From positions 1 through 54,824 of IMG/VR virus record IMGVR_UViG_3300025671_000082: a DNA stretch of 54,824 nucleotides; one strand, given 5' to 3'. Positions 2,789-45,659 of this stretch are shown here, piece by piece. The first letter of the stretch is position 1. Every line of letters starts with the position of its first letter. The notes under the pieces are model-generated. The model worked only from the letters and a program-made list of their open reading frames with translations. It was not told the origin of the DNA and searched no databases. The translations under genes were made by a program, and so were the position numbers. The stretch is from a virus.

Positions 2789-2981
2789 TAGTCAACTCCT
2801 TCCAAAAGACTTTCCACCTAGGTATGTCATGCCAATCGTAGCAGAGGGGGTGGTGCCTAGGGCCTCCACGCCACATATCCTTCGGTCCGCAGAGTTGGAC
2901 TCTACCTTCGTCGTCCATCAGTGCGGTCTTGTTACCATACGGAAAGTCTATTTCTGGTCCGGTAAAAACGACAGTTTTCAT
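2781..2981 (-). CDS. Hypothetical protein, 66 aa
   Basis: I use ATG 2981 rather than the in-frame ATG 2999, because 2981 overlaps the ThyX stop as ATGA and lies 10 bases after a GGAGG site. The product has many Trp, Gly and His residues (MWRGGPRHHPLCYDWHD). It matches no family I know. Translationally coupled to thyX. Confidence 0.65.
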   Translation of the reverse strand: MKTVVFTGPEIDFPYGNKTALMDDEGRVQLCGPKDMWRGGPRHHPLCYDWHDIPRWKVFWKELTNE

Positions 2982-3748
2982 GCTGTAAGTGCCTCCCATG
3001 ATACAGGGTATAACGGTTGGATAATCTCAACGATCTGTTTAGCCAAGTCTTGTGTCTCCTTCTGTGCATGACTGTCACTACGTTGGATATACATATTAGC
3101 CCAAGCATACAAGTTGCCCGTAGCGATCACCTCAGTGTACATGGACTGTGGTAGTACCATACGTGCTTGTTCTGGTGCTACTCCTCCGTCAATCATACGA
3201 TTGTACAAGGTGATAGACCTTTTCATTTCAATGCCGTACAAATACTCTGGGGATTTCCTGTTTGTAAAGTCTCCGAGGTTGGTTACAGCCTCATCAGACT
3301 TCTTACGCCATAACTCAGGCACATAGAACTCAGGCTCACTATCAAACTCCATCTCGCTAAAATCAATGTCCTTTGTTTGTAACATAATCTGACGAGCTAC
3401 AAAGATAGGCATCTTGAGGTGCAACGTGATAGCTGTATGAGCGAAGGGCGACCAATGGCTAGGTATCTTACGGATGTGGGTTAGTAGTCCCTCTAAGTCT
3501 TCCTCAGTATCAAGGCCAGTGACATAACCCAACCCGGCGTTGCCAACCTTATGACGCACATTAGCCCAATCACCAGACGTACAACCACGAGCAAGGAACT
3601 GGATTAGGATTTGGTCTTTCTTGGATAGTACCTTTTCCTCCCCTGTGTGTATACGGGGTAGCCACTCACTACGTTTATCGAAGCTAACCTTGGCTGCATT
3701 GACTACAGACAGGTCAGTTCCCATATGGTCGATGTATGTTGCTTTCAT
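2978..3748 (-). CDS. thyX: Flavin-dependent thymidylate synthase (ThyX), 256 aa
   Basis: Converts dUMP to dTMP using FAD, NADPH and methylene-tetrahydrofolate. The N-terminal core (SPFAHTAITLHLKMPIFVARQ, cut here by the family's signature helix) and the C-terminal segment ARMVLPQSMYTE...NLYAW...HAQKE match the family well, including the conserved Arg-HAQ region. Odd feature: the usual RHRxxSxNExSxRY signature is degenerate. Residues 119-140 read RQIMLQT then KDIDFSEMEFDSE, so the RHR triplet is replaced by Leu-Gln-Thr and the NE/RY residues are not in place. Either the enzyme uses altered contacts or it has lost activity. It follows the reductase in the dTTP supply operon. Confidence 0.85.
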   Translation of the reverse strand: MKATYIDHMGTDLSVVNAAKVSFDKRSEWLPRIHTGEEKVLSKKDQILIQFLARGCTSGDWANVRHKVGNAGLGYVTGLDTEEDLEGLLTHIRKIPSHWSPFAHTAITLHLKMPIFVARQIMLQTKDIDFSEMEFDSEPEFYVPELWRKKSDEAVTNLGDFTNRKSPEYLYGIEMKRSITLYNRMIDGGVAPEQARMVLPQSMYTEVIATGNLYAWANMYIQRSDSHAQKETQDLAKQIVEIIQPLYPVSWEALTA

Positions 3749-4602: not shown

Positions 4603-6576
4603 TTATGTCAAGTCTACAATTTCACAACTATCCCCAGAGCAGGCCATAGTCTGCATACCAGAGGTGTTGTCTTCCTGTTCATACTCCGAAAGTTTAGACC
4701 AGTCAATAGACTTAGGCATAACCTCAAGCAAGTCCTTGTAGGCGGGGGTTACAAGTTTTTCTGTGTAATCATCATACACCCCTTCTGTCTCCCCTGTCTC
4801 CTGATAAGGTGCCTGCTGGTATGTACCACCGTCATACGGCAGAAACGATACACCAGACATCTCATCAAAGTGCTCATAGACGAAAGCACCTACTTCCATC
4901 CACTCGTCATCTTTTACGGACACAGTGATAGAAGGCTTGTGCTCACACCAGTGACGCTGATAGATCAACCAAGTCTTCAGTTGCTCCATAGCAGACACAT
5001 CATTACGAACCACTGCATTATCAGGTGACTTCACAGGGAAGCTGAACACTGTGGTAGTATCTGGCTTCATAACACAAGGCTCATTAGGGATACCTTGGTC
5101 CTTCATGAACTGTGTCAAAGGGTCTTTATTGTCTCCTCTTACTGTCCGAATATAATAGGGAGAATGACGGGTATGAATACCGCTGGCACTGTCCACAAGC
5201 TGGCTAACAGTACCAGAAGGCTTAACGCAAGTGATAGCCGCAGAAACAGGGATATCAAGACGATCAGACCACTCAGCATTAGTAGCGACAGCAATACCTC
5301 GAAGATGCTCAAGGGTCTTCTCCAATCCTTCGTTTGCTGAAGTCATCAGCGGGTTGTCCATAATACCTGTCAGGCTGACACCCAACAAGCGTTCTTCCTC
5401 AGTATTACGTTGCCATACCTTACGCAGATACGGGAAGTGTGTGTATGTACTTTGGATAGTACCAAGGATGGTAGCAAGGCGAACCTTACGCTCCAAGTCC
5501 TCAATGGTATCTGTTGCTCGTACAACAACCTCGGTCAAGTTGCAGAACTGATATGGCCGCAGGATAATCTCTGAGCAAGGGTTTGTTCCAAACTCAAAGT
5601 TAGGGTCACGACGTCCATTCTTCTCTGCCTGCTTCTTGCTGGCCTGACGGTTGAACACACCACGTTCACCTGACTTACTCTCTACAAGGGCAAGCCACTC
5701 ACGCATGAAGGTCTCCATGTCAGGCTTCTCCGTGTAGCTTACAGAGTTGTTAGCCAAGGCACGTTGTCCTTGGTTTTCCCACCACTGTCCTGACTTAGCA
5801 TGACGCATACGATCATCAGACAAGTTACTAAGGCTAATCATAGCAGAGCGGCGTACACCACCTACAACTACAACTTCACCAATCTTACACATGATGTCGT
5901 GGCACTCAATTGAGGACAACTTACGACCAGTAGCACCTTTGAACTTCTCTACAGTAAACTGGAACAGATCAACCAGAGGAGCAGGGCCAGACGCACGACC
6001 CCCGAAGGTTTTGAGTTTAGCGCCAGCAGGGCGAATCTTGGACACGTCCCACTTAGGGATTTCACCAGCCCACAGAAGAGACAGCAGTTGCCGGTAAGCC
6101 TTAGTCCAACCTTCCTTGCTGTCCTTAACAACAATAGTCGTGTCGCTCATAAACAGCAGGTCAGGAATTTCAGGCAACTTGCTGATGAACTGACGCTCAA
6201 CAGAGAACCCTACACCAGTACCACACAACAAGATGAACATAGCCTCATCAAAGGACTTGGGGTCATCTACTGGCAAGTACGAACAGTTGTACATACAGGT
6301 GTTGTCACGGTCTGCTGCCTTGCCCGCTGTCATCAAGGACCGCATAGAGGGCATAACCTCAAGGTCAAGGATGGCAGTTTTGAGTTCGTATGATACTCCT
6401 TGCATATCACTGTCTCTGCCATTCAGAGGCTTTAGCTTGTTATTTACTACATTGTCGATATACCGATCAACAGTCTCAGCGAAGGTCTCACGTCGCCCCT
6501 TGTCTTCAAGCCACTTGGCATAACGACTAAGCGCAATGAAAGATTGATAGTCAGTTGGTAGAATGTTGTTTGTCAT
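4603..6576 (-). CDS. nrdJ: Class II adenosylcobalamin-dependent ribonucleotide reductase, 657 aa
   Basis: Monomeric RTPR-type reductase, like that of Lactobacillus leichmannii. It makes deoxynucleotides using a cobalamin-derived radical. NPCSEI at 332-337 places the thiyl-radical Cys334 and Glu336. Cys345 lies 11 residues on, as in the RTPR pair 408/419, and a Cys near 94-98 would be its redox partner. The tail CSGDSC (Cys646/Cys651) is the re-reducing pair, a likely partner of the glutaredoxin encoded downstream. Residues 115-130 (LLCGTGVGFSVERQF) and the KPSGTVSQL segment are also typical. The B12 need must be met by the host. Confidence 0.93.
   Translation of the reverse strand: MTNNILPTDYQSFIALSRYAKWLEDKGRRETFAETVDRYIDNVVNNKLKPLNGRDSDMQGVSYELKTAILDLEVMPSMRSLMTAGKAADRDNTCMYNCSYLPVDDPKSFDEAMFILLCGTGVGFSVERQFISKLPEIPDLLFMSDTTIVVKDSKEGWTKAYRQLLSLLWAGEIPKWDVSKIRPAGAKLKTFGGRASGPAPLVDLFQFTVEKFKGATGRKLSSIECHDIMCKIGEVVVVGGVRRSAMISLSNLSDDRMRHAKSGQWWENQGQRALANNSVSYTEKPDMETFMREWLALVESKSGERGVFNRQASKKQAEKNGRRDPNFEFGTNPCSEIILRPYQFCNLTEVVVRATDTIEDLERKVRLATILGTIQSTYTHFPYLRKVWQRNTEEERLLGVSLTGIMDNPLMTSANEGLEKTLEHLRGIAVATNAEWSDRLDIPVSAAITCVKPSGTVSQLVDSASGIHTRHSPYYIRTVRGDNKDPLTQFMKDQGIPNEPCVMKPDTTTVFSFPVKSPDNAVVRNDVSAMEQLKTWLIYQRHWCEHKPSITVSVKDDEWMEVGAFVYEHFDEMSGVSFLPYDGGTYQQAPYQETGETEGVYDDYTEKLVTPAYKDLLEVMPKSIDWSKLSEYEQEDNTSGMQTMACSGDSCEIVDLT
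4608..4681 (-). repeat. Direct repeat, upstream copy (within nrdJ 3' end)
   Basis: The functional copy of the repeat described at 3837-3910. It encodes the last ~24 residues of the reductase. The two repeats are about 770 bases apart, start to start, and bracket the 3948-4592 gene. Confidence 0.85.
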
Positions 6577-18037: not shown

Positions 18038-18226
18038 TTATACGATAAACCAACTACGGTTTAGGTCTTCAGTGTAGAGTTCTGCGTAGAACTCAAATTC
18101 AGAGTCGCCGGGATTAACCAGCACCTCAAGATACTCTTCCTCTGGACCAATAGCTTGGACATAGCAGGGTGCTCTTTCTCCTTCAAACTCTACCATGATT
18201 GTGCTTCCGATCTTAGGCAAAAGCAT
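18038..18226 (-). CDS. Hypothetical protein, 62 aa
   Basis: Beta-rich small acidic protein (GSTIMVEFEGERAPCYVQAIG) that looks like an SH3-like or small barrel fold. It overlaps the 3' end of the RNA polymerase gene by 14 bases and is co-transcribed with it. Function unknown. Confidence 0.6.
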   Translation of the reverse strand: MLLPKIGSTIMVEFEGERAPCYVQAIGPEEEYLEVLVNPGDSEFEFYAELYTEDLNRSWFIV

Positions 18227-20402
18227 AGTCAGACTCCTTTACAGCGTTTAAGTCTAGATTACCCTTTTCAGGGATTAGGTGGATAGCATCCATCTGCACC
18301 AAGATATGATACAAAGGATCCATCTCGTACAACTCTACAAACTTTTGACGGACGTGATTAAACATGTGTCCCATGTTACCAGCATGGCAACCAAAGGAGT
18401 CATGTACAACAGTCACTTCGTAGTCTGCATCATGTACAACCATAGTCAAATGCACAGCATCTAAACTATGAACAATATTTGGGGAAGCGCCTGTCTTTTG
18501 TTTAGTCTTTTTAAGTGTCGCTTCTTTCCATACTTGTATGTTAAGCTTAAGTATGTCATCCCCATAATAAAGCTGAACACGCTTCTTTTCAGGGTCTCTG
18601 TAAGAGTGTACAAAAGGAAACCCTGTTACAATTTGCTTATAGGTAATAGGCTTGTCTTTTTCATTCTCTTGTACAGCAAGCTGCTCAAACATACTAAGCA
18701 TTTTAGCGGGGCCGGGAAGCTTTTCATAGCACAAGGAATGGACAACACGACCTAACTTGTAGCCCCAAGAGTCATGCATGTCCCGGTGGTATTCCGATAG
18801 GTCACGAGTATCGTCAATGATTTGTTGACCCATACCTCGCTCAGTACCTCCGTAAGCTAGTGTCATAACATTTCGTTTGAGTGTTTTACGCCAGACCTTA
18901 CGGTCAGTAATCTTAGACCAATAGATAGGCATTGAGTCTTGAATATACTGATAGTTGTGGTTTTTAAACTTCCCAAACTTTTGCCAAGCAAGCCTGTTCT
19001 TTTCTGTCTTAGGTTGATACTTCTGCAAGTCTTCTAAGGTGCTTTGCCACTCTTCAAAGAACTTATCAAACTTGTCTTTGTCTGATTTCTTTACTGTTCC
19101 AAGCAACTCCTTTATTTTTGCTATTGTGTGGTCTGCAATAAACATATAAACATCACCGGGTAGGTCTTGAGGAACAAGATTAACCAAGGGAGCAATCTCT
19201 TCGTCTTTAGACATTGCTACTAGGTGTTGTACTCCGTTGTTTGACCCATCAATGTAAATAGGTAAGCATGAGGGGAAATCTTCTGTTGGCAAGCCATCAC
19301 CATGCCAGTTTGATAGCATAGAGAACTCGTAACAAGCCGCAAGAAAACATAACGGTTTATCAGCATCCATCCAAGCGTTATTACCAACAGGATCATCAAC
19401 ATAAAGCAAGATGTCGTCCATGTTGTCTTGAACCCACTGGACACGATCATCAAGAGAGACCTTATCGTTACCCCACATATTAGCCGTATGAACAGAAAGC
19501 CAGTATAACCCCTCTTCCCCTAGGGGTACTGGTGTGTCTAACAGCAGCAAACCTTTTGCGTTATCTGAAGACTGCTCATGAAGAAATGCTGTATTAGGGT
19601 AGATACGACCTCGGAAATCAACGTTGTAAAGGTGGTAGAAAGTGTTGTCTAAGTTTCTTTCTGCCAGAGCTTCAATGGCGTTGAGTTCAATTAGCAAAGA
19701 AGCTTTCTTTTCTTTGTCAATTTCTTTTGAATACTTGAAGGGTGTTTTTTTTAGGTTGCGTGTTTTCTTGAACACATCAAATACGAAAGAGTTAATACGC
19801 CAGCCGGTTTGTCCCAGCTTGTTTAACGTATCGATAAGATAAGACATGTCATTATTCTTTACCTGTTTAATCGCATTCTCGTGAGCGTGTTTGATTAGAC
19901 TAACCCCAGTTTGCTTGTGTAGAAACTTATTGTACTCCCAAGGTTCAGGAGCAGAGATAAGAGGAAACAAATCAACGTTCCCTTTGTCTACTAGATGCAT
20001 CATTTCTTGAATAGCATCCATGTTGCGGACTTGAATGTAGTAAGTAGGGTGTTTGTCGCGTTTCCCCTTTGAATTCTTCCTGTGTTCTCCTTTGTAAGAT
20101 AATATGTTCGTTTCGAAGTAAGAGATCAATATAAACCAACCGATGTGGCAAGCAGTAACAGCGTCTTCTGTCAGTTTTTCCCGACGCATAACTGCTGAAC
20201 CCATGCCTTTAACAAGGTTCGATAGGGTTGATTGTCTCTCAATTGCTTGCAGAACATGACCGTAAGTCATTTCTATTAAGTAAGTCGGATCTAGTTCTGC
20301 AACTTGATAAGCTTTGTTTCTTTTGTCAACAGAGCCAGTTTTACTTATCATTGATTGTTGTCTGAAGTTTAAGTCTTCAGCAAGTAGCTCTATAACATTC
20401 AT
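18213..20402 (-). CDS. T7-like single-subunit RNA polymerase, ~729 aa
   Basis: DNA-dependent RNA polymerase for the phage middle and late promoters. It has the DFRGR motif near residue 263, motif A IYIDGSNNGVQH near 384, motif B KTLKRNVMTLAYGGTERG near 510, and motif C TVVHDSFGCHAG near 667, all with catalytic residues intact. I use ATG 20402 (AAAGGA site 12 bases upstream) over the in-frame ATG 20444. It is shorter than T7 polymerase (883), mainly at the N-terminus. It presumably recognises the five AAATACTTGACCCTTATGA sites. A second polymerase of this family is encoded at 38439-43952. Confidence 0.93.
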   Translation of the reverse strand: MNVIELLAEDLNFRQQSMISKTGSVDKRNKAYQVAELDPTYLIEMTYGHVLQAIERQSTLSNLVKGMGSAVMRREKLTEDAVTACHIGWFILISYFETNILSYKGEHRKNSKGKRDKHPTYYIQVRNMDAIQEMMHLVDKGNVDLFPLISAPEPWEYNKFLHKQTGVSLIKHAHENAIKQVKNNDMSYLIDTLNKLGQTGWRINSFVFDVFKKTRNLKKTPFKYSKEIDKEKKASLLIELNAIEALAERNLDNTFYHLYNVDFRGRIYPNTAFLHEQSSDNAKGLLLLDTPVPLGEEGLYWLSVHTANMWGNDKVSLDDRVQWVQDNMDDILLYVDDPVGNNAWMDADKPLCFLAACYEFSMLSNWHGDGLPTEDFPSCLPIYIDGSNNGVQHLVAMSKDEEIAPLVNLVPQDLPGDVYMFIADHTIAKIKELLGTVKKSDKDKFDKFFEEWQSTLEDLQKYQPKTEKNRLAWQKFGKFKNHNYQYIQDSMPIYWSKITDRKVWRKTLKRNVMTLAYGGTERGMGQQIIDDTRDLSEYHRDMHDSWGYKLGRVVHSLCYEKLPGPAKMLSMFEQLAVQENEKDKPITYKQIVTGFPFVHSYRDPEKKRVQLYYGDDILKLNIQVWKEATLKKTKQKTGASPNIVHSLDAVHLTMVVHDADYEVTVVHDSFGCHAGNMGHMFNHVRQKFVELYEMDPLYHILVQMDAIHLIPEKGNLDLNAVKESDYAFA

Positions 20403-20464
20403 GCAATGGTTATTCCTTTTGTTGTGGACTAGGTGAGTTTTCACTCCACTTTGTTTAGGACTGT

Positions 20465-36545: not shown

Positions 36546-37646
36546 TTAAGCGTGGAAGATCGGCAGGATGCCCAAGTTCAGTGCGTCCATTTTACGAGCA
36601 TACGAAGCGGCAGCACCAAAGGCAGCGTCTGTAGCGAAGGCAGTAGTTGCGCCAGCCCAGTCGTAACCCATCGGGTGCATCGCATAACCCCAGCGATACC
36701 AAACGTTGGTTGAGCCACCACCAGCGTAGGAAGCAGCGTTACGGTCAACTTCAACCGGCGTCGGAACAGGCATAGCTGCGGAAGCAACGGAACCCGGCTT
36801 GATGATGAAGGTCGTCTTGGTGGACTGAGCGTTAACTTCAGCTTCAGCCGACAGGTTGCCTTGGTTAGCACGAGTCATAATCAGACGGAACTTACCACCG
36901 AAGATGGTCGTGAATTCGATGTTGCCTTCAGTGACGGTTGTTTCGTCAACGAGGTTGGCAGCACGCATTTCAGCCATAACTTCAGGCGAAGTCACCATGT
37001 ACATGAAGTCCGGTTCATAGTCCTTGAAAGCTGCTCCGATGGAACGGAACAGGCGCTCACCACGAGCAGCACCAATAGCGGAGCTATCGAACAGTTTACG
37101 AGCATCGCCAGCGCCAGTAGCGGCTGCGCCGTGCAGGCCAGCAGCGTTAACGTCAACGAATGCGCCAACACCTGCTGTATCTGCGTTGGTGTCGAAGTCG
37201 ATCATACCGGAAGTCGTGCCGAGGCTAACTTCGTGAGCAGCAACACCTTTGAGAACTGCCAGCAGAGCGTCATGTTCGTCCTGTGCGCGAACTTCAGCGA
37301 AGTCACGGGCGATCTTTGCCAGACCGTCCTGCTTGGAGACAACTTCCTGCATGTTAACTTGTTCTGCACCGAAAGTACGAACAGTCTTAACAAAGTCAGC
37401 AACGTCTGTGCTGATGCCGGTGTAGGTTCCGTCTGTAGCGGACGACAGCGAAGCAACGTTCACAGTGGCCGACAGAGGCTTGTACCAGCGGAACTGACCG
37501 ATGAAGGATTCTCCCGACAGGTCAATGCGCTGATCAGCAGCAACAATACCTGTGCCGTTCAGCTTCTTAGCTGTGGTGTAGGCTTCGTCCGAGTAAGCGG
37601 AGATGGCCAGAGCAATGTTCTGGAAATCAGTGTTAGAAATAGGCAT
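36546..37646 (-). CDS. Major capsid protein, 366 aa
   Basis: HK97-fold-like capsid candidate: helical N-terminal segment, VRTFGAEQVNMQEVVSKQDG in the spine helix region, and MTRANQGNLSAEAEVNAQ in the E-loop/P-domain region. Its position directly after the scaffold gene, its length and its GC-rich high-expression codon use are the main evidence. The gene is more GC-rich than most of the genome. Confidence 0.85.
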   Translation of the reverse strand: MPISNTDFQNIALAISAYSDEAYTTAKKLNGTGIVAADQRIDLSGESFIGQFRWYKPLSATVNVASLSSATDGTYTGISTDVADFVKTVRTFGAEQVNMQEVVSKQDGLAKIARDFAEVRAQDEHDALLAVLKGVAAHEVSLGTTSGMIDFDTNADTAGVGAFVDVNAAGLHGAAATGAGDARKLFDSSAIGAARGERLFRSIGAAFKDYEPDFMYMVTSPEVMAEMRAANLVDETTVTEGNIEFTTIFGGKFRLIMTRANQGNLSAEAEVNAQSTKTTFIIKPGSVASAAMPVPTPVEVDRNAASYAGGGSTNVWYRWGYAMHPMGYDWAGATTAFATDAAFGAAASYARKMDALNLGILPIFHA

Positions 37647-37673: not shown

Positions 37674-38348
37674 TTATAGGTTAAAGTTACCTAGTTTACC
37701 TTTCGCGGCAAGAGCTAGAATTTCTTGAGTTGTTAGTTCACCAATAGGTTTGGTGACATCAGTGGAAGGCGCTCCAGCCGGATTGCCTGTTCCTGCACCA
37801 GTGTTAGACTTAACACGGAACAGGAATGAGTTGTCTTCGGATTTAGCATAAGCTTCTACATAATCACGAATATTTGAACCTGTAGAGTGAACCCATTGAC
37901 CTTCTTCGTTTTGAACCAGTTGTTCAACAATTTCACGACGAGCCATGTCGCGTGATTTATCGTTGCGGAAATCCATACCAGCGAGTGCATCATTCAATAC
38001 ACTGTCTCGCTTAAGCTGCGTGGTTTCTTTTGCGTAAACTTCTAGTTTAGCTTTAGCTTCGGCAAGTTCCAGTTCAAGAGCTTCTTGAATTTTACCTTCT
38101 TCTTTCATACGGGCAATGGCTTCTTCTTTTTGTTTTGATTCCATTTCCGCTTTAAGCTTCAGGGCTTCATCCCGCTCTTTAGACATGCGGTCCATGTTTG
38201 CTTTCATCTTAGCCAGTCGTTCTTGAACGATAGCTTCAATGTCGTTTTCAGGGGTTTCTGGAGTTTCCTGAACTTCAGGAGTTTCTACAGTTTCTTCTAC
38301 AACAGTTTCTTCTGTTGTGTTTACTTCGTTCTGATTATCTTCAGTCAT
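37674..38348 (-). CDS. Capsid scaffold protein, 224 aa
   Basis: Acidic N-terminal tail (many Glu/Thr/Val), then a long coiled coil at ~50-115 (MSKERDEALKLKAEMESKQK), then a C-terminal region that probably contacts the capsid. No protease motif is seen, so this is a scaffold. ATG 38348 follows AAAGGAAATAAC. Confidence 0.8.
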   Translation of the reverse strand: MTEDNQNEVNTTEETVVEETVETPEVQETPETPENDIEAIVQERLAKMKANMDRMSKERDEALKLKAEMESKQKEEAIARMKEEGKIQEALELELAEAKAKLEVYAKETTQLKRDSVLNDALAGMDFRNDKSRDMARREIVEQLVQNEEGQWVHSTGSNIRDYVEAYAKSEDNSFLFRVKSNTGAGTGNPAGAPSTDVTKPIGELTTQEILALAAKGKLGNFNL

Positions 38349-38438
38349 GTTATTTCCTTTCAAGCACAGCTTGGGTTATATGTGTAAGTTTGAGTCACAG
38401 ACTCTATTAATTAGTTGAAGGCGTAAATATTACAAATA

Positions 38439-39459
38439 TTATGGCCCAATTCCATAGAAATCAAATCCCGGTTTTATCGGTTCAATGATTTCTTGATAAG
38501 TAAGTGCGTCAGGTCCAGACTGTAGCAGCCCATCTCGTTTAGCACGTTCTAAGTATTTTCGGTAAGTCTTTCTAGACAAACCCTGACGTCTCATTTCTTT
38601 GAGAGTTTTGTCAATAGTGCCTGACTTCAGTGCATCTGCATACAACTGGCGTAAAGCAAATTTCGCAGGAACTGCGTCACCTAAGTTTGTAAAGAACGCG
38701 TCGTGGATAGTACCCGTATCGATATTGTTCTCTCTTCCCCAAAGGTGAAATCTTCGGACAAGCACAGCGTCATTACTGTGGTTACCGTTAACACCAAGAC
38801 CAATAGCAGCGTCCTGTATTGATTGCTCAGACAGAAGTTTACCGTCTTTTGCAGGTGCTTCATATATATTGAACACTTTCTGCCCAGTGACAGGATCAGT
38901 GAAATCAATCCTTACTTGTTCCTTTGTACGATAGCGTTGCATCATTGTTTTACCATCGAAAGTTACCCAAGGAATATCTGTTGTCTGTGCTTCACGAGCA
39001 AAATCTTTTGCAATGTCTTTCCAGAACTTGATAAACTTACCAGTAACAGGAACCTCTGTTTCAAGATGACCAGACATAATTGATGAAATCTTATCGAATA
39101 GCCGAGTACCTACAAGGTCTCCGGTTTCATCTCTAAGCTTAAACAAAAATGTATGCATCTCTTCAGAGTTTTTAATTCCATCTCTGAACTCACCTTTAGC
39201 GGTTTCATACAGAGACTCTGTGATAGGTTTGCCTGACTTAGAGGCTAGTACCACATCTTTCTTAATGTCGCGTAATTCGTCAATACGTGTCCAATTTTTT
39301 CTGTCCATTTCAAAGCTAATCTTAGCATCAATAGCCTTCTTAAACTTTTCAACTTCTTTAGATGAGATAGAGACTTTACCTTTTTTAGCAAGCACCTTTG
39401 CAAAAGCGTCCGCAATATTTTTAGCTTTGGTAGCCGATCCGGCCCCATAGAATGTTACC
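38439..39459 (-). CDS. MuF-RNA polymerase fusion, exon 2 (polymerase C-terminus)
   Basis: Second part of the split gene that begins at 43952. It encodes the end of motif B (VTFYGAGSATKAKNIADAFA) and the rest of a single-subunit RNA polymerase, with motif C near residue 1437 of the spliced protein (TGTIHDAFFTN). It would lack a proper start if it stood alone: the first in-frame ATG would remove motif B. The frame is open up to the intron end, and exon lengths 3551+1021 give a total of 4572 bases, divisible by three. Confidence 0.88.
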
Positions 39460-40401
39460 CAAATTATTCAGCAAGGTAGTCACTCCTTGCCCGTGTAAAA
39501 GGCTCTACCGGAAGAAAACCAACGTTTAATTGTTCTATGAGAAACGTTATGAGCCTTAGCAGCATTGCGTAAAGAATGATATGTTTTGCCATCTACCGAT
39601 ACTTTTTTTGCGCGATGATGAGATTTGGACATTCTTTTCGACTGTGCCTTTTTAGCTTCTTCGGACCAAACGCCCTTAGCAGGTTGTTTACCTTTTGATC
39701 CAATTCTACGGTAGTAAGAACGTACCGCTTCTGTTTGTTTTCTCATTTGGTCTTCTGTGTTTTTCCGTCCTGACAAATGTTCTTTTGAAAATTTAGAATA
39801 TTCTTCTCTCAACCTTTTGAATTGAGTCGAACCTATTAGCTTATCTTTACCACAGTTCATAAATCTGAACGCATAGGTCATTTCAAAGTTATTATGTATT
39901 TTCCAAAGCAAAAAGTGAGCAAGGTAATGTTCTCTTGCTGTCAGGTAAGTGATGTTATCACTCTCATCAGAGCCGCCCATAGATTTAGGAATAATGTGAT
40001 GACCTTCTGTGTAAATATCAGAGGGTTTCACATTACGTCCGTATTTTCGTATGAGTTCATCGTAATGGTATTGGTAGTTCATTTATTTTCCTTTTTTTTC
40101 ACTGCTATATGTTTCCATATAGTTTAGACTATATCATCACTTGACTTGTTTCAGCTTACCCATAAATACTGCCCAAGCAGGATTAGAGTAATACCTCTTC
40201 CATTGTGTTAAAGTTTTAACAATGAATGGCCTTTCAGCCCATAGTACAAGTGCTCTGCGCTTCCATCTGACATTTAGATGTACTCCCTTCGGATAGTCGT
40301 TGAACGTTCCCCTTGTGGGGCTTCGCTGCTGATTGCCTACGTCATTACACGTTTAGGTTTTCCAGCAATTCACAGAGTTTAAAGAACACAGATTTAAGTT
40401 T
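39460..40401 (-). other. Group I intron (IA-like) with HNH homing endonuclease
   Basis: 942 bases. Minus-strand core elements are P (AATTGCTGGAAA, 40359-40370), Q (AATCAGCAGCG, 40324-40334), R with GACTAT (40293-40298) and S with ATAGTC (40127-40132); R and S form P7. P1 pairs the exon end AGAACAT with GTGTTCT (40383-40389), ending in the diagnostic U-G at the 5' splice site. The last intron base is G (39460). The endonuclease gene lies in the region after P7/S, as in many phage introns. Confidence 0.9.
39480..40082 (-). CDS. Intron-encoded HNH homing endonuclease, 200 aa
   Basis: HNH motif HHIIPKSMGGSDESDNITYL followed by a second His (REHYLAHFLLWKI). The C-terminal ~45 residues (VSVDGKTYHSLRNAAKAHNV and SHRTIKRWFSSGRAF) form an intron-endonuclease repeat / NUMOD-like helix-turn-helix for target recognition. 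It should cut intronless alleles of the MuF-polymerase gene near motif B and so spread the intron. Confidence 0.9.
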   Translation of the reverse strand: MNYQYHYDELIRKYGRNVKPSDIYTEGHHIIPKSMGGSDESDNITYLTAREHYLAHFLLWKIHNNFEMTYAFRFMNCGKDKLIGSTQFKRLREEYSKFSKEHLSGRKNTEDQMRKQTEAVRSYYRRIGSKGKQPAKGVWSEEAKKAQSKRMSKSHHRAKKVSVDGKTYHSLRNAAKAHNVSHRTIKRWFSSGRAFYTGKE

Positions 40402-43400
40402 ATGTTCTGGTTTTTAGCAGCTTTCATTAAGTCAGACCAATCAAGGTCTAATTCAGCAAGTTCAGGTATTGCCAAGAACTCAGGGTCGTTGACAGTGCGT
40501 TTAGCAATTTCGTCGTACAGACGCTGTTTCTTATCGGTTTGAACAACGTTAGAGAGGTTAGCAGCCGCTCTATCTTTTGTGGAAAGAGCAATAATCTGCG
40601 CACCAGAAGAACTAGCGTCGTTTTCAATCATCATCTTGGTCTTGTACTTAGCAAGCTTTCTGATATCTGCTGAATTAAACTGCCGTTTATCTGTTGGCAT
40701 CTTACCATCCATGTGACGGTATATACGAGTGTATTCTAGAGCCAAACGAGATACTTTGCCGATGTGTTCATCATCAAGACCCATTTGATGGGTTTTCTCA
40801 ATGAACTTACGAACCTGACCTGCTCTTTGGGAAGGCTTGTCTAGCATATAGCTACCAAGCTCTAGTAAGTCATCTTCTACAGCTTTAAATGCTTTTAACC
40901 TACCTTGCACTGTAAGAACATCTAGTGGGTTCCCGACAGCGGCACCTATTTGAGTCATAAGCTCTTCTACTGCGTCTGGTGTCATAGAAACACCTTTTGC
41001 CGTATTTAAGAACGGACGCACGGTTTCACCCTTAGTTGGAGTTAAAAGACCACGGTGATAAACACGACCTCGGAAGTCAATAGAGGCGTCTACCGAGAAG
41101 GCTTGATTACGCTGTCTATGGAATTTAGCTGTTGCAAGAACACCTCTTCCATCATTACCACGAGCATCGATAAACAGTTTCTTCCACTCGTTCTTTTCAA
41201 GCAACGCAGCATCACCTGATCGTTTAGCTTTAAAGTAGATTACTTCTTCGGCAAAGTCAAAGAAATCAGGGTCTACTTGGTACTTCACTGAGTTAGCGTG
41301 ATTAAGCATTTTAGCTATATCACGATCAATCTGCTTTGGATCATAGTCAGCAAAGACGTTTTCAGATACGACAGGTTGAGAGGTTTTACGATTACGAGCA
41401 TCAAAGTAAACTTTTTCTCCCGCCTTAGCGTAAAGCTGATCACGTCTATGGTATACCCCAAACCGCCTTGCAGCACGAGTCTTAGCATTAGCAATTTGTA
41501 GTTGTCTTAAATCACCATCAACAATTTGAATTTGTTTAAACACAGAAACACCGCGTAAAGACTTATCGCGAGAAGCTAAACCTGTAGCCAAGTCAATAGG
41601 AGAGCTTGTGCCACTATCACGAAAAACATCAGTACGGATTATCCCTTGGCGCTCAAGATTTGCAAGTATTCTGGACCCATCCTTATGAAACTCTTTTAGT
41701 GTTTTAGATCTAAAAGGATTTAAACTACCAAGCTCATCATCAAACAGCTGACCAATCTTAATAGCAAGCTGATCGTAGTCTGCACCGTCTGCAGCGGCAA
41801 TCATTTCCATAGACTTAGACAAGGCTTTAATGGTTTTGTCGTTTATGGTTTTAATAGCCTTTTCTCGGTAAAAATTAGTAACCCTTTCTCGGTAAAAATT
41901 AAATAAAAAATCTAGAGCAATCGCGTCAAAATCTGCGATGCTGGGTACGTCAGAAGCAGAAAGTTTTTCTGAAAGTGTTTCTATAATAGATTCAAGGGTT
42001 GTTTCATCCAAAAACTCACCGTCTAAAATTTTACGGGTATTACCTCGGAGTTTAGAAATTTGTTGAGTGATCCAAGAGTCGCTTGGAAGTTTTTCTTTGT
42101 TTAGCTTTTTCCATAGTTTATAACCGGGAAGTTTTTCAAGAAGAAACTTCTTAGCATTAAACTTCGGATAACGCCTAATGATAGGCTGTGTGTAAGCAGC
42201 GATAGGGGCCTTGCGATTGTAGAAGGCTCTACGAGCTAAGTTAGCACCTTGTTTTTCAGGCCAACGAGCAATGTAGCGGTTATCTTTGATTTGAGAGTCA
42301 ACTAACTTAGAGATTGTAAACTTTTTACCGAGAATGTCAACCTCTGGATCGTCTTTTAAACGACTGTTAAGCGTACCAAACATCCTACCTCGCTCAACAG
42401 CGCGGTTAAACAGTGTAGTACCTTGGTCCTGAACAGCATTCAAAGTAAACTTACGGAATACAGAAACAGGGGTCCCCCAGACTTCTCCGGTTTTGTTAGC
42501 CCGAGAAAAAGTTTGACGAAGAACATCAACAACAACTGATCGTTGGTTTACAGAAAGAGACCTGTCTAAACTATTTACAAAATCTCGTATATAGTCTTGT
42601 TGTTTAGTTGTTAGAGCATACTGTTCAAAAGAAAGCTTCTCAAGCCTCTCCGCTAGAAACTCTGGATCAGGAGGTTGTAAATGCTTGTAAGGCCCATCCC
42701 CATAGTCTGTCCCATCGGCGCTAAAGGCAGCACCCTTGCGATCGTTTTTGAAATAGCGCCTTGAACCTTGTTTTTGAGACAAAGAGTTTCCCTTGTAATC
42801 GACAAGGGACAAAGCTTGTGCGTTTTCACCAGCATCATTTTTAAAGAAATCCTTTAGTGCTTCGGTATTAGCCTTAGAACTCATAAGTTCATCTGGGGTG
42901 TTAAACCTAAGCGTACCTGTGTATTCATTGGTTGTAGTAGGGCGTCTAACTGTTCTATTAGCACGACGCATTAGTCCTCGAATACTCAAAGCCTTACCTT
43001 CAGGAGAAACAAACTCTTCAGCCTTCAGTCGTCCTTTTTGAAACAACGAGGCTTGACGCTCACCACCTAGTAGTTTAGTTTGAACTTCAGTTGTTTGACG
43101 CCTTAGCCATTCTCCATAGGTCTTAATCTTTGAAGGTTGACCATCCAGGTCTGCGGAATGAACTTTGTTTAGTTTCCTTGGTTTAATTTTATCTGAGGTC
43201 ACGCCTTCCAGAGCTTCTTTAGACTTTACTACCGGAACAAGAGTTGATCGACAGTTAAAGTGAAGCGGCGGTTGGAAACGGTTATCATCAACATCATAAA
43301 CCTTACCATTGTGATGAGTACAGATAGGGCTGGTACGGCTATCAAGAATAGCAGTAAACATGTAGCCTTCAAACAATTCTTTGTTTTGTTGTACAACATC

Positions 43401-43952
43401 ATTCAAAGCTTGAGTTTGAGCCGCTGTAATAGAAGTTCTTGTTAGTGTCTTGGCTTGATGCTCTGTAATCTTAGTTGTTTTCAGAACATCATTAATAATT
43501 TCGTTGTTAGCTTTCCCCGCAGCAAGTCCAGCTTTAACTTTAGATTGTATGCGGACTAGTTCTCCAGAAGAGATATTGCTAACGTTTCTAGTAATAGATT
43601 TAGCACCCTTAATGTTTGGGCCAGTAATCTCTTTCACAAGATCAGCAGTCTTAGGTTTTTGTGTACGATAAAACCCTTTCACTTCCGCGTGAAGGTTATT
43701 ATAGTGAAAACTCTTATTTGCCTTTGTAAATTGAGTAACAGAGCCTACAATAGACTTGTTAATTTCTTTAGCAAAACGGTTAACTTCAGGTTTCACATCG
43801 CTCCGAATGTTCTTCTTTAAAACTTCTGCTAAGTTTTTACGATGTGTTCTTAGTATTTCACGTTGTGCTTTTTGTTGACCATTCTCGTAGAGTCGAACAT
43901 CAGTGCTGTGATCTACGATCCTGTCAAAAATCTTTTCGTTAATTGTAGACAT
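40402..43952 (-). CDS. MuF head protein fused to single-subunit RNA polymerase, exon 1
   Basis: Residues ~1-240 are a MuF/SPP1-gp7 domain: TRTSITAAQTQALNDV then DSRTSPICTHHNGKVYDVDD and PPLHFNCRS with CxxH...C. After a long middle region the polymerase begins: thumb/N-terminal region KMLNHANSVKYQVDPDFFDF, DFRGR near residue 957, motif A ENDASSSGAQIIALSTKDRA with Asp near 1112, and motif B Lys at 1180. Translation without splicing would stop 15 codons into the intron. Spliced length 1523 residues. It is a candidate virion polymerase. Its order relative to portal and scaffold is normal for MuF proteins. Confidence 0.88.
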
Positions 43953-44012: not shown

Positions 44013-44087
44013 TGGTGCTGAAACTCAGATTTGAACTGAGAACCTACGCTTTACAAGAGCGTTGCTCTGCCGTTGAGCTATTTCAGC
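44013..44087 (-). tRNA. tRNA-Thr (anticodon UGU)
   Basis: Full cloverleaf on the minus strand: acceptor GCTGAAA/TTTCAGC, D arm GCTC/GAGC, anticodon stem ACGCT/AGCGT with loop CTTGTAA (anticodon TGT), T arm CTCAG/CTGAG with TTCAAAT, and encoded ACCA end. It starts right after the portal stop codon, so it must be processed from the head-gene transcript. It reads ACA codons. Confidence 0.95.
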
Positions 44088-45659
44088 TTATTCTTCCTCT
44101 AATTGAATCTCTTCATCCGGTGTTTTATTTGTTAACGGATCAGTTTGAATCTCTTCAACCGCTTCTTCGTCGTTGTAATCAGCCGGAAGGAAGTCATTGT
44201 ACTTGGCAATATTAATCCAAGTGCTACGAGAGATAATACCACTCTGATACCATTCACTGACAAGGCGCATTGCACCTTCACCGCCAACAATAGGAGAGAA
44301 GTCAGAGGATAGTTGGAAGTTAATGTCATTACCTGTATATTCGGTGCCATACTTCCAATTCAGCATGAAGGCAATAACTTCTTGCATTGTGCTTGAGATT
44401 TTAGCGTTCATGGTCCCAAGTTGAGCAGTTTGAGAAGCATTACGGATTTCAAGAGCAACACCAGAAGCTGCTTGTTCGGGAGAGAGCATACGAATTCCCA
44501 TCTTTGCCATTTCAGAAACAGTAGCTTCAATAGCTCGATCCATGTCACTCAAAGCACTTGTAGGTGTTTCAAGGACAGTAATAGACTCATCTTTACGGAC
44601 ACGTAGCCAAGTACCAAGACCTGCATTCACGAGTTCTTCAAACTCTTCGTCAGTCATGTCAGACTGCACCACAGGGGTATAGGTCGCAGCACCGTATAAC
44701 AGGTGGTTACGGCGAGATACTTTGTTGTACAGAGCTACCTCTCTGTCAATCAGAGGCATAAGTACTGGTTCAATTGGCTCTAGTTGTCCGTTAAGCGGAA
44801 ACGCCGGGATACGATCCAAACGCTGACCAAACTTCATAGGATAAACAGTGTCGTATTTTTGGAAACCACCATCAGCAGAATCTATGTATTCTTGAGTGAT
44901 TACACCATTCAAAGCTTCTACTTCGTGAGAACCATGAGCTTTCTTATAGTAATCAAGTACCAAAAAACCCTGCTCATCAAGATAGTGATCACAAACAGTA
45001 TCAACATAGTCTGGATGCCAAGGGTTGTTTGAATCATACTCTTCCATAATGTAACGAGTAACCATACGGGTAAGAGTCTTAGCGCGAGTAATCGGATGAG
45101 TCTTTACTTGAACATTAATAACGTTTTCAGCCTTAATCAAAACAGGGTAAGGTGAAATTTTCATACGCTCTTCCGGCATCATTGATTCTAGTTCAGCATC
45201 AGGCACAACAGGGTGATCAATGTAAACCCAAGCACGAGAAGTTTGAAGTTCTTCCCAGATAGCAGCATCTAAGAAATTAAACAAGGATGCACCATCAAGG
45301 GTAAAGTCTTTTGTGATCCAATCATAAGCTTGTACTTGCTCAAGCTCTTCAGGTAACTTAAGTTGTGAAGGCTTACGAAGCAAAGCACTAATTAGCACAC
45401 GAGCATACTGTGTTGTAAGCCCCGGTAGCTCTGCTTCTGACTTGTAGAAGTCATACTGGTTTTGAGTCATGCTAGGTGAAAAAGGCAGTAGCAAGTTATT
45501 GTAATCAACCTCTATGAATTCATCATGTGCTTTAGCATGAGCTTCACCTTGAAGCACAGCACGGGCTTTTTTCCACAAAGGCTTAAGAGACATATAAGAA
45601 GCACTAGGTGTTTCTGGTCCTCTTTTAATAGTATTAGCAGCTGTCTTAACGAGCGCCAT
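44088..45659 (-). CDS. Portal protein, 523 aa (DUF4055-like)
   Basis: Dodecameric DNA gate at the capsid vertex. Size, the position before the MuF gene, and segments such as EDLSFLNFLDAAIWEEL-type helices, the FPLNGQLEPIEPVLMPLIDR stretch and the VALEIRNASQTAQLGTMNAK region fit DUF4055 portals. The C-terminus is acidic. Preceded by phage promoter copy 4 and a ~110-base AT-rich leader. Confidence 0.82.
   Translation of the reverse strand: MALVKTAANTIKRGPETPSASYMSLKPLWKKARAVLQGEAHAKAHDEFIEVDYNNLLLPFSPSMTQNQYDFYKSEAELPGLTTQYARVLISALLRKPSQLKLPEELEQVQAYDWITKDFTLDGASLFNFLDAAIWEELQTSRAWVYIDHPVVPDAELESMMPEERMKISPYPVLIKAENVINVQVKTHPITRAKTLTRMVTRYIMEEYDSNNPWHPDYVDTVCDHYLDEQGFLVLDYYKKAHGSHEVEALNGVITQEYIDSADGGFQKYDTVYPMKFGQRLDRIPAFPLNGQLEPIEPVLMPLIDREVALYNKVSRRNHLLYGAATYTPVVQSDMTDEEFEELVNAGLGTWLRVRKDESITVLETPTSALSDMDRAIEATVSEMAKMGIRMLSPEQAASGVALEIRNASQTAQLGTMNAKISSTMQEVIAFMLNWKYGTEYTGNDINFQLSSDFSPIVGGEGAMRLVSEWYQSGIISRSTWINIAKYNDFLPADYNDEEAVEEIQTDPLTNKTPDEEIQLEEE

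Follow-up and report, generated by a model that had tools for sequence, protein, structure and literature searches.

A group I intron with an HNH endonuclease frame in the motif B codons of a phage head protein and T7-like polymerase gene

We analysed a stretch of viral DNA of 54,824 nt (IMG/VR record IMGVR_UViG_3300025671_000082, hereafter the window) and found a group I intron with an intact HNH endonuclease frame in the codons for catalytic motif B of a gene that joins a MuF head domain to a T7-like RNA polymerase. Our preferred reading, in which we have high confidence, is that this is a mobile intron that would splice itself out of the polymerase transcript and home through its endonuclease, and that the interrupted polymerase is probably packaged. 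At the level of sequence this reading is supported by the ribozyme core, the P1 helix, the final G, the intact endonuclease frame and an exact empty site. The preliminary description of this DNA had proposed the intron, its coordinates and its splice junction, all of which were borne out. It did not mention the endonuclease frame, the N-terminal MuF domain or the existence of uninterrupted copies, one of which is 99.98% identical to the window.

Intron boundaries and the uninterrupted copy

The intron lies on the minus strand between a 3551-nt exon 1 and a 1021-nt exon 2 that includes the stop codon (Table 1). The two exons sum to 4572 nt, and translation after removal of the intron gave 1523 codons with a single terminal stop. 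The insertion point falls within the codon of Met1184 (AT|G), and joining the exons rebuilt motif B as KNQN|MVTFYG, as had been predicted. In the unspliced transcript the reading frame continues for 16 extra codons to a stop at 40353, and the listed exon 2 frame begins at 39395, past motif B. Active polymerase very likely depends on self-splicing, because a product that ends at this stop would lack most of motif B and the whole of motif C.

In the proposed mechanism, the precursor RNA would fold and guanosine would attack after the U of ...AACAU, as expected from the intron family. The exons would then be joined from ...CAGAACAT to GGTAACATTC..., and only the spliced mRNA would yield active polymerase, which would be packaged in the head.

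Table 1. Positions in the window of the exons, the intron, its structural elements and the encoded domains
Feature	Position	Strand	Remarks
Exon 1	40402..43952	-	MuF head domain and N-terminal two thirds of the polymerase part, to ...KNQN plus two bases of the Met1184 codon
MuF / SPP1 gp7 minor head protein domain	43239..43550	-	residues 135-238
RNA_pol domain, exon 1 portion	40402..40664	-	from residue 1097
Group I intron	39460..40401	-	942 nt; Rfam match, absence from L002, covariation
P1, exon strand	40402..40408	-	AGAACAU; U.G at the 5' splice site
P1, intron guide strand	40383..40389	-	GUGUUCU
P3, 5' strand	40371..40377	-	CUCUGUG; partner 40253-40259
P4-P5 region	40327..40367	-	P and Q elements
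P7, 5' strand	40293..40298	-	GACUAU; R element
P3, 3' strand	40253..40259	-	CGCAGAG
P7, 3' strand	40127..40132	-	AUAGUC; S element
P9 hairpin	40105..40122	-	CUAUAUG-GAAA-CAUAUAG
HNH homing endonuclease ORF	39480..40082	-	200 aa; between P9 and the 3' splice site
Last intron base	39460..39460	-	G
Exon 2	38439..39459	-	remaining motif B, motif C, stop codon
RNA_pol domain, exon 2 portion	38583..39459	-	to residue 1476; includes motif C HD1437

A natural sequence nearly identical to the window, but without these 942 nt, fixed the intron boundaries to the base, within the active-site region of the polymerase. This sequence (L002, IMGVR_UViG_3300006392_000154, 10,448 nt) aligned to the window end to end over 10.4 kb. 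Positions 39460-40401 were missing from it to the base, and the remaining differences were a mismatch and a single-base indel, each close to a contig end. Its translation is the 1523-residue protein, and it was the sole viral contig that matched a 29-mer across the spliced junction. A second sequence (L003, dataset 3300006403) was identical to the window over 7018 nt and started precisely at the first base of exon 2 (window position 39459). An assembly branch would be expected at this edge if joined and unjoined molecules coexisted.

We take the datasets of these two sequences (3300006392 and 3300006403) to be Delaware Bay metatranscriptomes, and L002 is most likely spliced metatranscriptome RNA. 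The dataset numbers had no match in the literature searched, and the metatranscriptome status of both sequences is presumed. Both sequences could instead come from genomic DNA of an intron-free allele of this phage, one population having acquired or lost the intron very recently. Intron-minus genomes are common, with motif B uninterrupted in 95 of 102 relatives. We regard this alternative as unlikely, though it carries some weight. Homing usually leaves co-converted differences around its target, whereas the flanks here, identical across 10.4 kb, show none close to it, and the edge of L003 falls exactly at exon 2 in a second dataset. The dataset numbering appears to be that of RNA samples, and a neighbouring dataset number, 3300006372, includes an RNA-phage contig. 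The last point is suggestive only: a scan for an RNA-phage replicase motif matched at least 120 contigs, and among those listed one came from 3300006372 and none from 3300006392 or 3300006403. Even as DNA from an intron-minus allele, the two sequences would leave the element a group I intron with the same boundaries.

No viral contig contained an exact match to patterns taken from the 5' splice site or from the intron core; this says little, because the window's own record may have been left out of the scans. L062 and L061, when compared, did not turn out to be a further pair of spliced and unspliced sequences. We continue to favour spliced RNA as the origin of L002.

Ribozyme core and intron-encoded endonuclease

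A covariance-model search with Rfam RF00028 returned 103.1 bits against a cut-off of 50 (E 1.1e-25), with the match over 40459-40105. The P, Q, R and S elements named in the preliminary description were located in the intron core, the first two in the P4-P5 region and the others as the strands of P7. The P1 helix was likewise recovered with its seven pairs and U.G end, and the final base of the intron is the expected G. A seven-pair P1 with U.G arose in 520 of 100,000 shuffles of the first 60 intron bases. P10 was weak by inspection (at most two pairs). Group IA, the subgroup named in the preliminary description, would be distinguished by P7.1/P7.2 and particular core bases; the fold and the alignment contained a P7.2-like hairpin, which leaves IA a candidate subgroup.

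Covariation was measured in an alignment of six introns (the window, L021, EBPR siphovirus 1 (L067), L191, L056 and the terminase intron of DSS3_VP1) against a structure written from the window helices. The results showed pairing in 86.6% of 268 cells and both-sided change in 24 of 46 pairs, and none of 500 shuffles equalled the observed values for percentage of paired cells, both-sided changes or covariation. For further pair types the count was unremarkable, as 69 of the 500 shuffles matched it. Because the structure was drawn from one of the six sequences, the test somewhat favours it. The core helices P3, P4, P5, P6, P7 and P9 were conserved, with P7 nearly invariant. P1 was paired in just 57% of cells; its strands vary with the insertion site and aligned poorly. 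The Rfam score and the covariation both uphold the assignment to group I, and the window intron would be predicted to self-splice in a guanosine-dependent manner.

The endonuclease ORF is intact over 200 codons and matched phrog_655 with an E of 2.9e-39; against the Pfam HNH profile it reached 20.6 bits, just under the cut-off of 21.4. Its relatives within other introns were 66% (L191), 42% (L021), 38% (L056, residues 1-119) and 27% (EBPR siphovirus 1) identical to it. In L192, which holds a further relative of the endonuclease, no group I intron match reached the gathering score. The endonuclease would be translated from the precursor RNA and would then probably cut or nick intronless motif B copies in co-infecting relatives, so that the intron spreads or the rival is penalised.

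Phage genes in pieces that result from endonuclease insertions are known, and on that model the element would be a decayed intron or a free-standing endonuclease insertion that does not splice and leaves the polymerase gene in pieces or dead. We consider this very improbable, since the core, P1 and final G are intact, the endonuclease is intact, both exons retain family-invariant residues in frame, and L002 provides an exact empty site.

Related insertions in phage genes

A search of IMG/VR with exon 2 returned 64 loci, and an alignment search returned at least 537 relatives, of which the best 80 of 537 were examined; L191 was added via its endonuclease. After removal of nine loci that repeated a contig, 102 distinct contigs were checked. 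The search for intronless relatives, which had been proposed beforehand, found motif B uninterrupted in 95 of them (L002 included) and interrupted in two (L021 and L191), while in five it lay beyond reach (L003, L054, L055, L058 and L204). Motif C was uninterrupted in 98 and interrupted in one (L056), and three contigs ended earlier (L063-L065). The single relative found in bacterial genome contigs (L243), on a short contig of a Gammaproteobacteria MAG, has an uninterrupted motif B.

The introns of L021 and EBPR siphovirus 1 lie three bases beyond the window site, within the codon of Val1185, and their removal gives NMVAFYG and NMVTFYG, respectively. That of L191 follows Gly1189, 16 bases from the window site, and its removal restores VKFYG|AGEAT. 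The L056 intron (L056:1753-2623, with an HNH gene) lies between ...ATCCACGAT and GCATTTTTT (IHD|AFF), directly after the codon of the catalytic Asp of motif C in a related polymerase. Its P1, read by eye, has seven pairs (CCACGAU/GUCGUGG) with a U.G end. The view that such elements prefer conserved sites agrees with these insertions, three at motif B (L021, EBPR siphovirus 1 and L191) and one at motif C (L056). Because the insertion points are neighbouring and the endonucleases related, the same intron lineage or close kin appears to have entered the catalytic codons several times, or to have shifted between neighbouring points. With related introns at most 16 bases apart in motif B and one at motif C, homing and rivalry during co-infection become testable. 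A junction some bases away in the window itself, for example after ATGGT as used by the introns of L021 and EBPR siphovirus 1, has almost no probability, as the window intron stands directly 3' of ...GAACAT, GGTAACATTC comes right after its final G, and L002 carries the ...GAACAT / GGTAACATTC join.

A close parallel in an annotated genome was EBPR siphovirus 1 (JF412302; L067:10388-11237), where the group I match scored 40.5 bits, below the cut-off, with an E of 3.1e-08 for 2901 bases searched. As in the window, a group I intron that harbours an HNH gene splits motif B of a homologous head-polymerase gene. Apart from the shifted insertion point, it differs in being annotated as three genes, and gp47, the HNH gene gp48 and gp49 together look like one polymerase gene split by an intron. 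Group I introns also interrupted the terminase large-subunit gene in DSS3_VP1 (L066:564-780) and in two related phages, L241 and L242, and in the last two an HNH-like ORF was present near the intron.

It is well established that essential phage genes can harbour group I introns that encode HNH endonucleases (PMC8541194, PMC11620839). In Shewanella phage KASIA, a siphovirus, introns interrupt the TerL and DNA polymerase genes and exact exon joining was established by cDNA (PMC8541194). The window and KASIA share group I introns with HNH genes, but the host genes differ, and in KASIA the RNA polymerase gene is not the interrupted one (PMC8541194). In PhiPA3, the group I intron gp210 encodes an HNH endonuclease and lies next to conserved aspartates in a gene for a multisubunit virion polymerase; its endonuclease introduces nicks into the corresponding gene of a competing phage that lacks the intron (PMC11620839). 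The window is similar in that a group I intron and an HNH gene lie close to the catalytic residues encoded by a phage RNA polymerase gene. However, PhiPA3 is a jumbo phage with a multisubunit enzyme, while the window polymerase is a single T7-like chain joined to a head protein, and the endonuclease activity demonstrated for PhiPA3 is a prediction for the window.

The interrupted head and polymerase protein

The MuF domain of the protein matched PF04233 with 65.4 bits and the SPP1 gp7 model TIGR01641 with 72.5 bits. Further along, motifs were found in T7 order: DFRGRVY (DxxGR) at 959, D1112 (motif A), K1180-Y1188 (motif B) and HD1437 (motif C). The RNA_pol profile passed its cut-off of 22 in the spliced protein (36.9 bits), compared with 17.1 and 18.0 bits for the separate exons. 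The motif B assignment is based on the Pfam span, on K1180, Y1188 and G1189 being invariant in the family, and on equal spacing in the second polymerase of this phage; in PDB sequence searches, the alignments to T7 did not extend to single residues of motif B. The eight-residue spacing from Lys to Tyr that had been claimed was confirmed for K1180 and Y1188 and is the same in the second polymerase (K523, Y531). The T7 counterparts are presumably Lys631 and Tyr639.

For the L002 protein, residues 451-1523 were modelled (mean pLDDT 61.6), and the model matched T7 RNAP with a Z of 22.1 and an rmsd of 3.7 over 511 residues; Z was 15.7 for N4 RNAPII and 15.1 for N4 mini-vRNAP. The polymerase part reached only 21.1 bits against phrog_2166. 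Its profile comparison with the second polymerase was weak (probability 2.2%), though DxxGR and motif A run in order.

In this siphovirus-like marine phage, the gene follows those for the portal (44088-45659) and a tRNA and precedes those for the scaffold (37674-38363) and the major capsid protein (36546-37646). Given the fusion to MuF and the neighbourhood of head genes, it is plausible that the polymerase is packaged in the virion. The preliminary description had called it a virion-type polymerase. The fold and motifs sustain the T7-like polymerase; the tie to the virion is a prediction, and the fold is nearer to T7 RNAP than to N4 mini-vRNAP. Like the N4 virion RNA polymerase, the window protein is single-chain, has the T7 fold and is tied to a virion protein, which here is a MuF domain.

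The 'minor head protein-like protein' of DSS3_VP1 and DSS3_PM1 (Naomviridae) is a homologue of the spliced window protein, with identities of 39.6% for exon 1 and 48% for exon 2. The DSS3_VP1 protein has 1463 residues, and its gene follows a portal gene and a tRNA, as in the window. In contrast to the window, the gene is uninterrupted at the site in both phages, and DSS3_VP1 has its group I intron in the terminase gene instead.

We regard the polymerase fusion and its repeated targeting as more interesting than the intron as such. A widespread group of tailed phages (at least 537 related loci) would carry a head protein with its own RNA polymerase, although the annotation in isolates names just the head protein. 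Packaging would make it a virion polymerase in phages other than N4 and the jumbo phages. In searches of the open-access literature we found no description of the window intron or of a fusion of MuF with a T7-like polymerase. A broader proposal is that head-fused polymerases of a large group of marine phages are a preferred target of homing introns, through pairing with the most conserved bases at motifs B and C, that L002 and L003 catch the splicing, and that splicing gates the packageable polymerase. We put this forward tentatively, as a conjecture with perhaps a modest chance of being right as a whole.

The tRNA between the portal and head-polymerase genes is a tRNA-Thr (TGT; 44013-44087, minus strand), and DSS3_VP1 has a tRNA-Asn at this place. 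The second polymerase of the phage is a more typical single-subunit RNA polymerase (18213-20444, minus strand; phrog_414, 448 bits), and DSS3_VP1 likewise has a separate 'RNA polymerase' gene. Genes for ThyX (2978-3748) and ribonucleotide reductase (4603-6576) were found on the minus strand, and the presence of ThyX points to dTMP synthesis by this phage, in contrast to its relatives with dU-DNA.
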